The position numbers were made by a program, and so were the translations under genes. Below the pieces are notes generated by a model, which saw nothing but the letters and a program-made list of their open reading frames with translations, had not been told where the DNA came from and made no database searches. Source: Infirmifilum sp. NZ (GTDB lineage: Archaea > Thermoproteota > Thermoprotei > Thermofilales > Thermofilaceae). From it: 64,000 nt of DNA. The DNA lies in assembly GCF_022693705.1 (NCBI RefSeq), contig NZ_CP094288.1, forward strand, positions 1,692,526-1,756,525. The letters run 5' to 3'. Within the stretch, counting starts at the first letter, position 1. The number at the start of each line of letters is the position of its first letter. Shown one piece after another: positions 28,674 through 32,882 of the stretch.

Positions 28674-29314
<641 letters not shown>

Positions 29315-29345: not shown

Positions 29346-29534
29346 TCTAGTAAGTACTCGAGCTCACGCATACCAGCGAGCATTACACGGAGGAGGCATA
29401 TGCATACTCCTGAAATTTTTACAATATTTCCAATAAATATCTAAAAATTTATGCGTACTCATCGCGTGAATATAGGTGATTATTGCGAAAAAATATTGGA
29501 AAAGATGAAAAATCGCTAGGCGCGCTACAGCGAG

Positions 29535-30905
29535 ATGGCTATTCCGAGGCTGATGTGTACTCAACACCCGGACTCGGCTGTGAGGATCCCGGTGTCTGAA
29601 GAAGTCCGGGAGGCTATCCTAGGCTACAGGCTGTACGGCTGCGACGAGGTCATGGTGGACTTCGAGGGCAAGCTGACCCCGTACTCCCAGCCGCGTGACA
29701 TCGTCCTCAAGGCTCTCGAAGAGGGGATTCCGGTTGGGGAGGAGTTCTTCGTGACGGTCAGGGTGCCGAACCCGAAGCTGGAGGGCGTGGACAGGCTCCT
29801 CCTAGCGCTGGAGTCGGCCGTGCTGGCGAACTACTACTCTGTCGAGCGCGCGGGCGTTGAGGCTGTAAGGTGGGTAGTCGTGCCGATGGTCGACTCCTCT
29901 GACGTCCTCAGCGTAGCGTGCAGAGCCCTCCGCGAGAAAGCCAGGCTGGTGCGGGAGCTCACCGGCGTTGACGCGGAGCCGCCCGAGGTGGTCCCGCTCC
30001 TCGAGGGGGTCAGCGAGCACCTTAACGCGGAGTCTATACTGTCCTCCTACCTCGAGTTCCTCGAGAGAAACGGCATCGACCCCAAACCCCTAAGGGTCTT
30101 CGTGGGTAAGAGCGACGCGGCGCTCCGCTCAGGCCACCTCGCTTCTCTCCTCTCCACACTCCACGCCCTGAGCTCAGTCCACGACTTCGCCCGCCGCTCC
30201 GGAGTGGATGTGAGCGTGATTCTCGGCATGGGCTCTCCCCCCTTCCGCGGCGGGCTGAACAACCCTTCTCTCACTGAGGTGGAGGCACGCCTCTACCGAG
30301 GCTTCGACACGGCCACGCTCCAGTCAGCCGTCAGGTACGATGTGCCGCGTGAGGTCGCGCAATACGTCTCCAAGGTTCTTCGGGACAACGCAGGGAAGCC
30401 CGCTCCGAGATTCCGGGCAGGCCACGAGCTGCTGGAGGCGATGTCTCAGGCGTACAGAAGCAGGGTGACGCAGCTCCTGCCCGCGATAAACGAGATCGCC
30501 AACAAGGTCCCGCAGACGCGCGAAAGGCTCGACCGTAGGCTCTACGGGCGCTTCATGGCTGAAGACGCACCAGGCCCGGCTCCTCGCGCGATAGCATTCA
30601 CAGCCGCTTGCTACAGCGTGGGTTTCCCGCCCACCCTCCTCGATGCGCACGGCATCGTGGAAAAGCTGGAAGAGCTCTCTTCCCCCCTCCTGGAGCATAT
30701 AAAGGCTGAGCTAGAGCTCGACTACCAATTCTTCGCACCCGAGGTCGCGAGCAGTTTTCTCGGGTTCAGTACCGTCAGGGAAGCCCTTGACCTGAAGGAG
30801 AAGATAGGGGTTGAGGCAGCCCCAAGAAAAGACTACCTCATCGCCATAGACGCGGGCGATTTCGACGCGGTGCGCCTAGCAAGGATCCGGGGATTCCTCG
30901 GCTAG
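29535..30905 (+). CDS. ppcA: Archaeal-type phosphoenolpyruvate carboxylase
   Basis: This 456-residue enzyme carboxylates PEP to oxaloacetate to refill the C4 pool. It is the short archaeal PpcA form, half the size of bacterial PEPC. Signs are the N-terminal motif LMCTQHPDSA, DEVMVDFEGKLTPY, the GMGSPPFRGGL loop with its conserved Arg, and PAPRFRAGHELLEA. It starts with ATG 29535. It is the last intact gene before a region full of decayed genes. No clear TATA box lies at the usual distance. Confidence 0.93.
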   Translation: MAIPRLMCTQHPDSAVRIPVSEEVREAILGYRLYGCDEVMVDFEGKLTPYSQPRDIVLKALEEGIPVGEEFFVTVRVPNPKLEGVDRLLLALESAVLANYYSVERAGVEAVRWVVVPMVDSSDVLSVACRALREKARLVRELTGVDAEPPEVVPLLEGVSEHLNAESILSSYLEFLERNGIDPKPLRVFVGKSDAALRSGHLASLLSTLHALSSVHDFARRSGVDVSVILGMGSPPFRGGLNNPSLTEVEARLYRGFDTATLQSAVRYDVPREVAQYVSKVLRDNAGKPAPRFRAGHELLEAMSQAYRSRVTQLLPAINEIANKVPQTRERLDRRLYGRFMAEDAPGPAPRAIAFTAACYSVGFPPTLLDAHGIVEKLEELSSPLLEHIKAELELDYQFFAPEVASSFLGFSTVREALDLKEKIGVEAAPRKDYLIAIDAGDFDAVRLARIRGFLG

Positions 30906-31248
30906 CCGCCGGGTGTCCCGTGAAACGGTACTTCCGAGGTGATAGTGAAGAGAGGTCATAAAGGAGTCGGAGATCTGGGATATGCTCTGGAAGATCGCGC
31001 CTGGCTCATCTGCCCCCTTCACCTTTCTGAGGGCCCCCTTTCGGGGTGTCATGGGTCCCCTTTTCGGGGCGGGCCGCCCTGGCTGGGCGGCCTTCAGCCC
31101 GCGTCGCCGCGGGCACATCCCCTCTTCGCACCGCGCGCGGCACCCTCCACTCCCCCTGAGGGGGATGGAAGGGAACTGAGTTGCTCATACCTCAAGATGA
31201 AGAGGGATTTATCTCCTTTTTGCTTTGAGGGCTGGAAGTGGAAACTAG
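30906..31248. other. Non-coding GC-rich stretch after ppcA
   Basis: No credible gene is seen. All six frames give only low-complexity Pro/Arg/Gly-rich products. The middle part holds five perfect short hairpins (described separately). From about 31165 the GC content falls, and the decayed SWIM gene starts near 31249. Confidence 0.5.
31035..31164. repeat. Cluster of five perfect GC hairpins, possible structured RNA
   Basis: Perfect stems lie at 31035-31046 (4 bp), 31057-31069 (4 bp), 31072-31092 (8 bp, loop TGGCT), 31097-31114 (7 bp, loop TCGC) and 31152-31164 (5 bp, loop TGA). On the minus strand the first two become CCCC-GAAA-GGGG and CCCC-GAAAA-GGGG, the first a stable GNRA tetraloop. This suggests, if it is an RNA, that the minus strand is the RNA strand. 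I could not match it to SRP, RNase P or tRNA. It may also be a compound terminator or a mobile-element end. Confidence 0.4.
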
Positions 31249-31693
31249 GGCGGAGCTAGGAGCTACCTAAGGCTCATCGACCGCAGCTATTACTTGAGGG
31301 TTGAAAGAGAGAAGAGCAGGCTGGCCTGAGCCCTGGTGAGGTGCATCCTCTCCGGCTACTGTGGTAAAAGGCTGAGCGAGGAGCGCAGGGACCTGCTCAA
31401 CGCGCTGGGCGAGCCGCACTCTTCATTCCCGGACAAGCCCGCGGAGTGGCTCTACCGCGCAACCTACAGGCTCTTGGCCGGGAAGGTGGAGAGGGTCGGC
31501 GTAGAGCACTGGCTCGTCAGAGAGTTGCCCGAGACGGGAGACACCTACCCCTGGTACAACGTCTGAATAAGCGAGGGGAGGTACAGGCGCGGCTGCCTCT
31601 CCAGCCTACGGCTACGTCCGCAAGGCGAGGGCATGTAGCCATATAGCAACAGTCATGCTCCACAGGAGGCAGCTGAGGCCCCGCGCCGGATGA
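31249..31693 (+). pseudogene. Decayed SWIM zinc-finger protein gene
   Basis: Joined frames read SYLRLIDRSYYLRVEREKSR, then VRCILSGYCGKRLSEERRDL and YRATYRLLAGKVERVGVEHW. A tail follows: SEGRYRRGCLS and, after a frameshift near 31598, RKARACSHIATVMLHRR. The tail matches the SWIM pattern C-x-C-x(n)-C-x-H, with the first Cys replaced by Arg (CGC). In-frame TGA at 31327 and 31564 break the gene. Small SWIM proteins are common in crenarchaea and are thought to bind nucleic acids or partner proteins. This copy cannot make a full protein. Confidence 0.65.
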
Positions 31694-31951
31694 GCCTAAA
31701 AGTAGCATCGCCGCACAGCACTTCCTCGGCGCTGTAGCCGAGCAACACTGGGAGGCCGCAGGCCCCATCCATCAGGATGTTGATTATCCCCCTGTACATC
31801 TCAGCGTGCTTTCTTGAGTCGTGTGCGATGCTCCCCAGTATCGCTTTAATCATCTCGCTCCTCAGTCCAGCAACCCAAGCTCAAGCGAGCACGCGTTCTT
31901 CAACTCGAGCTCCACGCTCCTCCTGATGCTTTCAACAAGCTTCTGGCTCAT
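31653..31951 (-). pseudogene. Frameshifted ferritin-like/rubrerythrin-family gene
   Basis: From ATG 31951 the frame reads MSQKLVESIRRSVELELKNA and then CSLELGLLD before TGA. One frame over it resumes as MIKAILGSIAHDSRKHAEMY and continues briefly. Together they form the first helices of a ferritin-like four-helix protein with the E-x6-Y/H-type metal ligands (ELELKNA, HDSRKHAEMY). The second helical pair is missing or unrecognisable. It also overlaps the SWIM remnant on the other strand. I read it as a truncated and frameshifted remnant. Confidence 0.55.
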
Positions 31952-32009
31952 CGTTGTATAGGCGCACCAGCTATAGAAATATCTAGCGCTTGTGAGGTAA
32001 CCCTGCTGA

Positions 32010-32882
32010 GTGGAACCCCGTATGGTTAGCGTGAAGGCTGCGCTGGAGCGTGCCATCAGGACAAGCCGGAAGCTGGTCGCCCCAGGTGACAGAGTGTTCG
32101 TTGCCGTCAGCGGCGGGAAGGACAGCGCGGTGGCGCTGTACGTCCTCCGGGAGCTCCAGAAGACCAAGCCCTTCGAGCTGAGGGCTTTCCACATAGACCT
32201 CGGTCTAACCCCCACGCTCGGGGTCGTCGAGGATCTGGCTGGGATGCTCGGCGTCCAGCTCCACACCGTCAGCCTCAGGGACTACGGGATAGACATACCC
32301 TCCGCGAGCAGGGCCCTGAGAAGGCCACCGTGCTCGGTCTGCGGGGCGGTGAAGAGGTATCTCATGAACAAGGCTCCCAGAGAGCTCGGGGCGACTAAGG
32401 TCGCGACAGGCCACAACGCTGACGATATCCTGGTCTTTTTCCTGAAGGACCTTGCGCAGGGGAGGGCTGACTGGGCCGCTAAGCTCAAGCCGATCGCCCC
32501 CTCCACGCACCCGAAGCTTCTCCCGAAGATCCGGCCGCTCTTCGAGGTCACAGGCGAGGAGGCGCTGGCGATAGCTGAGTCACAGGGTCTGCCCTTCACG
32601 AGAGAGAGGTGCCCCCTCGCGCCGCTAAAGGGAGACTGGCTCCAACCCTTCTTGCAGGACTTCGCACGCAGGGTTGAAGAAAAGCACCCCGGCTTCAGGC
32701 TACAACTGGTCCGCGGGGTAGCCCAGCTACCCGTAACAGGTCAGAACCCAGAGCTCAGAGAGTGCAGGCTGTGCGGTGAACCTACAAGCAAGGATATTTG
32801 CGACTTTTGCAGAATACGCATCGCTCTACATCTCACGAGCCTACCCTCTTCAAGTCTAGGAGAAAAGGGGTCTAACATCTGA
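32010..32882 (+). CDS. PP-loop tRNA thiolation enzyme (TtuA/TtcA/Ncs6 family)
   Basis: This 290-residue protein should thiolate a tRNA base after activating it with ATP. Signs are the PP-loop VSGGKDSAVALY (residues 33-44), an iron-sulfur-type Cys pair PPCSVCG with a third Cys in RERCPLAP, GHNADD, and a C-terminal zinc site CRLCGEPTSKDICDFC. The N-terminal zinc ribbon found in TtuA is absent, so this is a shortened variant. GTG 32010 and ATG 32022 are both possible starts. It stands between decayed genes but is itself intact. Confidence 0.8.
   Translation: MEPRMVSVKAALERAIRTSRKLVAPGDRVFVAVSGGKDSAVALYVLRELQKTKPFELRAFHIDLGLTPTLGVVEDLAGMLGVQLHTVSLRDYGIDIPSASRALRRPPCSVCGAVKRYLMNKAPRELGATKVATGHNADDILVFFLKDLAQGRADWAAKLKPIAPSTHPKLLPKIRPLFEVTGEEALAIAESQGLPFTRERCPLAPLKGDWLQPFLQDFARRVEEKHPGFRLQLVRGVAQLPVTGQNPELRECRLCGEPTSKDICDFCRIRIALHLTSLPSSSLGEKGSNI

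Follow-up and report, generated by a model that had tools for sequence, protein, structure and literature searches.

A hairpin cluster downstream of ppcA in the archaeon Infirmifilum sp. NZ as probable guide-RNA scaffold of a TnpB-carrying mobile element

In a 64,000-nucleotide stretch of the Infirmifilum sp. NZ genome (contig NZ_CP094288.1, positions 1,692,526 to 1,756,525; here called the window), a cluster of GC hairpins follows the gene ppcA. We find it very probable that this cluster is the minus-strand scaffold of a guide RNA, an omegaRNA or right element RNA (reRNA), at the right end of a mobile element that carries tnpB. That we are dealing with a TnpB right end and such a scaffold is strongly supported. 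This identification is built on a repeat family with covarying base pairs, a link to tnpB, the fold of the encoded protein, a fixed right end and a motif in the alleles that lack the element, and it places an anonymous hairpin cluster in the ancestry of TnpB and Cas12. The family adds a divergent archaeal member to the TnpB-omegaRNA systems; it was unlisted before, is unusual in its mobility and includes guide-RNA units that lack tnpB.

The initial annotation of the window had reported five perfect stems within 130 bases, and these are recovered at 31035-31164 with lengths of 4, 4, 8, 7 and 5 bp. Two of the hairpins read CCCC-TTTC-GGGG (31035-31046) and CCCC-TTTTC-GGGG (31057-31069) on the plus strand, which on the minus strand corresponds to the repeated CCCC-GAAA(A)-GGGG that had been described. 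The stems hold 28 base pairs, a number equalled by none of 983 130-nt tiles of the window (mean 9.7, maximum 26). The stems are thus where they had been placed, but the span given for them cuts the feature: the full minus-strand structure comprises 186 nt (30993-31178), and a promoter-like tail reaches to about 31257. It starts 88 nt beyond the ppcA stop at 30905, i.e., downstream of that gene as stated. Folding of both strands, proposed as a check, was carried out for 30993-31178 and gave, relative to shuffled sequences, a z value of -3.95 for the minus strand and of -2.16 for the plus strand. No known RNA family had been recognized by eye, and an Rfam search of the whole window at gathering threshold likewise returned no match.

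To see how the structure is closed, consider its 3' end. The right-end GCGCGGCC (GCGCG) pairs with CCGCGC(G) about 140 nt upstream, near 31139, and this long-range stem encloses five hairpins, several of which have loops of the GNRA type (GCAA, GCGA or GAAA). In 20 copies from this genome 92.0% of the cells are paired and 16 of 35 pairs have changed on both sides; for 50 copies, taken from this genome and that of its close relative Thermofilum sp. NZ13, the corresponding values are 92.3% and 21 of 35, where the alignments were fitted to the structure of the model and the copies, besides being related, probably exchange sequence. The 50-copy covariation is reached in 0 of 500 shuffles, and slid structures pair only 42-52%. 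Under the same limits, the paired positions contain 112 G-U against 32 A-C combinations, and this excess favours an RNA made from the minus strand. Helix 1 of alignment A7, between the bases just before the guide and the distal 5' part, has 91.7% of its cells paired and is a nested helix in this model. Lack of covariation and of conservation had been named as what would speak against a structured RNA; 50 copies covary, and about 25 are present in this genome. The proposal of a structured non-coding RNA holds in that a covarying minus-strand structure is seen, but not in the sense of a wholly new class, the RNA being in all likelihood an unlisted example of the known omegaRNA/reRNA kind.

What had been overlooked is that the block is a dispersed repeat. 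In this 1.83-Mb genome (G000) copies are found at 18 places by BLAST and at 25 by covariance model, and NZ13 has about 37. They stand at unrelated genome places, in both orientations, with a constant terminal nucleotide. At about ten of the G000 copies antisense tnpB coding sequence starts directly beyond the block, when this is read on the plus strand. Full-length copies measure 2.2-3.3 kb and have the order left end ((G)TAGCAATGCTA), upstream region with a small open reading frame (ORF), tnpB, scaffold and right end (GGCGCGGCC); in intact copies the scaffold lies directly 3' of tnpB and ends exactly at the right end. A winged helix-turn-helix identity for the small upstream ORF was considered and found no Pfam support.

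Nucleotide and covariance-model searches in genomes of the same genus gave no copy outside this genome and NZ13, and conservation at the nucleotide level is therefore narrow. Through protein search, related tnpB elements with 35-40% protein identity were reached in two other genomes (G002 and G013), where they end in 3' blocks of their own with the shared motifs CCCATGAC, GAnGAGGGG and a GGCGCGG end. A solitary right-end block without tnpB stands beside an intact element in G002 (L085:4291-4397), from which follows that tnpB-less copies occur also in another Thermofilum-like genome.

The tnpB ORFs encode 450-500 amino acids, start at a conserved GTG that follows a GGAGGTGG site and show about 75% amino-acid identity. 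Their median ratio of nonsynonymous to synonymous substitution rates (dN/dS) is 0.28, which means that the protein has been under purifying selection. Pfam detects in the product only a zinc-finger domain, near its cut-off. A sequence search of the PDB with a single TnpB protein gave no match, whereas an alignment profile of 20 related proteins matched ISDra2 TnpB (E 4e-4) and Fanzor2 (8e-8). The AlphaFold (AF2) model, with a predicted local distance difference test (pLDDT) value of 87.9 and a predicted template modelling (pTM) score of 0.83, has Cas12f, ISFba1 TnpB, Cas12m and Fanzor2 (9b0l) as its top PDB matches in Foldseek, and all the top matches listed are Cas12, TnpB or Fanzor proteins. 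Model, Foldseek and profile agree on a TnpB/Cas12f fold with WED, REC, RuvC and zinc-finger TNB domains. The cysteines of a CCCC zinc finger between RuvC-II and RuvC-III (C393, C396, C410 and C413) are invariant in 20 sequences, and the RuvC-I and RuvC-III aspartates (D208 and D420) are conserved, one relative being without the first.

The flanks in NZ13 are mostly 92-99% identical to those in G000, and this closeness provides empty alleles. The right end is precise in all occupied/empty pairs, and the block is the exact right end of a TnpB-carrying element; a mobile-element end was among the options raised initially, and it proves to be one and the same thing as the structured RNA of the other option. 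When positions are counted 5' of the guide-equivalent, i.e., the sequence that follows the right end, position -1 is C in 16 of 16 true empty alleles (chance 3e-9) and position -3 is a pyrimidine in all 16 (1.5e-5). Locus c34 was left out of this count, as a right-end remnant is present in its NZ13 counterpart. At position -2 there is C in nine alleles, T in five and A in two, and positions farther out are mixed. The right end itself reads GGCC or GGTC, that is, it has G at -3 and lacks the YYC motif. Judged from these sequences, YYC would be a motif resembling the transposon-associated motif (TAM) of TnpB systems, and an empty allele with TAM and guide match, next to an occupied junction without TAM, appears as the arrangement that such a system needs. 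Anatomy and guide source of reRNAs are known from ISDra2 TnpB (PMC8612924), and by analogy 30973-30992 would serve as guide in the window copy.

The left side of the insertions behaves differently from the right. Target duplications were found at c1354 (a perfect 9 bp, GGCTACTTC), c401 (9 bp with one mismatch) and c925 (11 bp); at c1276, c1483, c188 and the NZ13 copy L118, 65-346 bp of host DNA are instead missing on the left side. Comparison of L042, L043 and L050 with L165, L171 and L129 shows insertions at which 315, 346 and 589 bp of host DNA disappeared, each time on the side of the left end and with a precise right end. The left-end flanks share no motif. Target-primed retrotransposition, at which a fixed 3' end and a variable 5' end hint, is unsupported, as the genome has no reverse transcriptase (PF00078) by Pfam search. 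The two flanks of NZ13 copy L121 map 300 kb apart in G000 (L096, L181), which suggests rearrangement between element copies, and another NZ13 copy (L132) is inserted about 50 nt upstream of an apparent tRNA gene. The last spacer of a CRISPR array with repeat GCAGAAGTCAAGAGACAATTGAAAG and at least 14 units (L023:2490-2546; G000:C1 about 346,680-346,735) matches 29 nt of the scaffold core (window positions 31117-31145) perfectly; the element appears to have been sampled by the CRISPR of its own host. No relatives of the TnpB were found in the viral contigs searched, and 16-mer guide matches there numbered 12, about the chance level for a collection of that size.

From these observations the following mechanism can be outlined. 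In intact copies tnpB and the scaffold would be transcribed together, with the scaffold RNA forming the 3' portion of the transcript. TnpB would bind the scaffold and use as its guide the 16-20 nt that follow directly after the right end. These nucleotides would match the insertion-free site beside the YYC motif, so that the ribonucleoprotein could recognise the empty allele and thereby favour retention or re-copying of the element, while the right end is expected to be spared because it has G, and not a pyrimidine, at -3. Given a scaffold backed by covariation, a predicted guide boundary, a predicted TAM and matched occupied and empty alleles, guide use is directly testable.

The window copy would be a derivative of this element in which a deletion has removed tnpB while scaffold and promoter-like tail were retained (Table 1); because of this retention it probably makes a stand-alone omegaRNA, and it is a candidate gene for one, as read from the sequence. 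TnpB encoded at another place in the genome could be loaded with such an RNA. The TATA-like GAGATAA precedes the AGTTCCC of the scaffold by 31-34 nt, so that the RNA would start just ahead of the scaffold. When compared with the conserved sequence upstream of tnpB (GTTTTCACTTTCGGCG...GATATAAGGCC), the tails of c1590, L129 and L130 match more closely than any of 300 shuffles. The NZ13 ortholog (L133) has the same right end in the same place. Between the two orthologs the promoter-like tail is 96% and the 5' hairpin 97% identical, and the guide is identical in 20 of 20 positions, values in line with the 98.9% of the flank and thus without excess conservation. The scaffold core (30993-31143) is 89% identical, with the changes clustered in its 3' half, and their resemblance to other copies is what gene conversion would give. 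The segment 31294-31776 was also considered as a separate second repeat family, since NZ13 lacks it at this locus; this was rejected because most NZ13 instances lie 0.7-1.9 kb from a scaffold copy, as the upstream parts of the element do.

Table 1. Position of the window copy and of neighbouring features (window coordinates)
Feature	Positions	Strand	Basis
ppcA, archaeal-type phosphoenolpyruvate carboxylase, neighbouring host gene	29535-30905	+	TIGR02751, 283 bits vs cut-off 146
Guide-equivalent, first 20 nt beyond right end (TTCCAGAGCATATCCCAGAT); putative guide	30973-30992	-	Analogy with reRNA (PMC8612924); identical in NZ13
Core of omegaRNA-like scaffold; 3' end is the element right end	30993-31143	-	Covariance model R1, 158.9 bits; covariation (20 and 50 copies); alignment A4
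Variable 5' hairpin of scaffold; sequence varies, pairing kept	31144-31178	-	CCCTTCC/GGAGGG here vs CCCGGCA/TGCCGGG in other copies
Promoter-like tail, GTTTCCACTTC.. and TATA-like GAGATAA (31209-31215); expected start near 31185	31179-31257	-	Homologous to c1590, 81% over 250 nt
Segment (706 bp) missing at the NZ13 locus; upstream remnant and adjacent truncated ORF	31258-31963	-	L133 aligns to 29494-31257, then 31964-32838
Remnant of element upstream part (left end to tnpB in intact copies); tnpB deleted	31294-31776	-	74-83% identity to upstream parts of other copies

Upstream of ppcA, at 28674-29311 on the minus strand, adjacent ORFs resemble, by eye, a PIN-domain toxin and an AbrB-type antitoxin (VapC/VapB-like).

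Several results weigh against the guide-RNA reading or narrow it, in addition to the relatedness of the aligned copies. Y1 (HUH) TnpA (PF01797), which 5 of 14 control genomes match, and serine recombinase TnpA (PF00239) are both absent from the genome by Pfam search. Elements of the IS200/IS605 type make no target-site duplication and have an insertion motif at the left end; neither is the case here, and the target duplications depart from the IS605 pattern. The RuvC D-E-D triad is incomplete, since a hydrophobic residue takes the place of the canonical RuvC-II Glu in the hidden Markov model alignment, and cutting by TnpB is therefore not assured. An invariant Asp (D347) is found at, or one place after, that position, and the relocated Glu of Fanzor (ExxxxxxCxxC; PMC10711439), six residues before the zinc finger, is not conserved in alignment A2. 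What fold and RNA support is a relation to TnpB, as far as the model goes, and no claim of a cutting enzyme is made; the protein may cut, or may only bind, like Cas12m2, which binds without cutting (PMC10442227). The YYC motif could equally be a target preference of the mobilising enzyme, and in IS605 elements target preference and TAM coincide (PMC8612924). In the window copy, the tail alone matches the tnpB upstream sequence no better than shuffles do (43/300), and the link to a promoter goes through c1590 and its 81% identity. What we infer for this predicted RNA is that it is transcribed and bound by TnpB, that it provides a guide for cutting or silencing, and that stand-alone copies act in trans.

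There are also other ways to account for the block. The hairpins may act as DNA, forming a subterminal palindromic right end for a transposase that works in trans, with an incidental RNA fold. The right ends of IS200/IS605 elements do use DNA hairpins, every occupied/empty pair shows that the element ends precisely with the block, and tnpB-less and truncated copies exist; yet a 150-nt multibranch structure with a one-strand bias in G-U over A-C and with GNRA-type loops exceeds what a DNA end needs, and the genome has no Y1 transposase. We regard this explanation as improbable, and the roles of DNA end and RNA scaffold can coexist. A compound transcription terminator or attenuator of ppcA, another of the options raised initially, would fit GC hairpins so close to the stop codon, but no T-run follows them, and it leaves unexplained the dispersion of the block to about 25 unrelated places in either orientation, the fixed end nucleotide and the link to tnpB; its probability is very close to nil.

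A more serious rival concerns just the copy in the window and leaves room for the family as a whole to be an omegaRNA scaffold: this copy would be a dead remnant, a decayed end with neither transcription nor function that has survived by chance. Its right-end base is changed (GATC for GGTC), tnpB is gone, its NZ13 ortholog lacks another 706 bp, and its TATA-like box is non-consensus. Against decay stand its covariance-model score, the highest of all copies although this copy belongs to the training set, and the pattern of its differences from the NZ13 ortholog, which are clustered and largely keep the stems. Death of this copy is a real possibility, to which we give somewhat less than even weight.

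Taken further, the guide-RNA reading leads to a bolder picture, which we offer as speculative and rather unlikely in its entirety: a TnpB lineage in Thermofilum that lacks the canonical RuvC-II Glu would be served by RNA from its own gene and by a dozen or more trans-acting, stand-alone omegaRNA genes; the elements would spread with target duplication and no known TnpA, and their insertion would be tied to YYC at the guide boundary. If true, an archaeon would have a multi-guide, trans-acting OMEGA (obligate mobile element-guided activity) network, and prokaryotes a third route by which TnpB elements move. For the question of how TnpB elements spread, the target duplications made in a genome with neither Y1 nor serine transposase are relevant, together with the many tnpB-less guide units; the missing Glu is relevant to the way in which RNA-guided proteins give up cutting for other functions.

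Among the papers searched, none names both Thermofilum and TnpB. Among known systems, the TnpB-omegaRNA/reRNA pairs of IS200/IS605 and IS607 elements (OMEGA, ISDra2 TnpB; PMC8612924, PMC10097598) share with the present family the TnpB/Cas12f fold and CCCC zinc finger, and a structured RNA that immediately follows the 3' end of tnpB, at the right end, and whose last scaffold bases pair with a far 5' part. At the sequence level they also share a guide-equivalent in the right-end flank which, in the empty allele, is preceded on its 5' side by a TAM-like motif. The present family differs from them in its lack of the canonical RuvC-II Glu, its motif YYC, a genome without Y1 or serine transposase, 9-11-bp target duplications or left-side deletions, stand-alone copies of promoter and scaffold, and no Rfam match. 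It resembles Fanzor elements, including 'ghost' copies without the Fanzor gene (PMC10432273, PMC10711439), in the Fanzor2 fold match and in many gene-less copies with retained ends, but has no conserved relocated Glu, no inverted repeats and an archaeal host. With nuclease-deficient TldR (PMC13418256) and Cas12m2 (PMC10442227) it has in common an altered RuvC triad in a TnpB/Cas12 fold, but here a mobile element still carries the gene, and RuvC-I and RuvC-III have kept their Asp, while Cas12m2 has His-Asp-Asp. The omegaRNAs of haloarchaea and Sulfolobales (PMC12558985) are, like the RNA proposed here, archaeal and linked to TnpB-type elements, but those elements belong to IS200/IS605.
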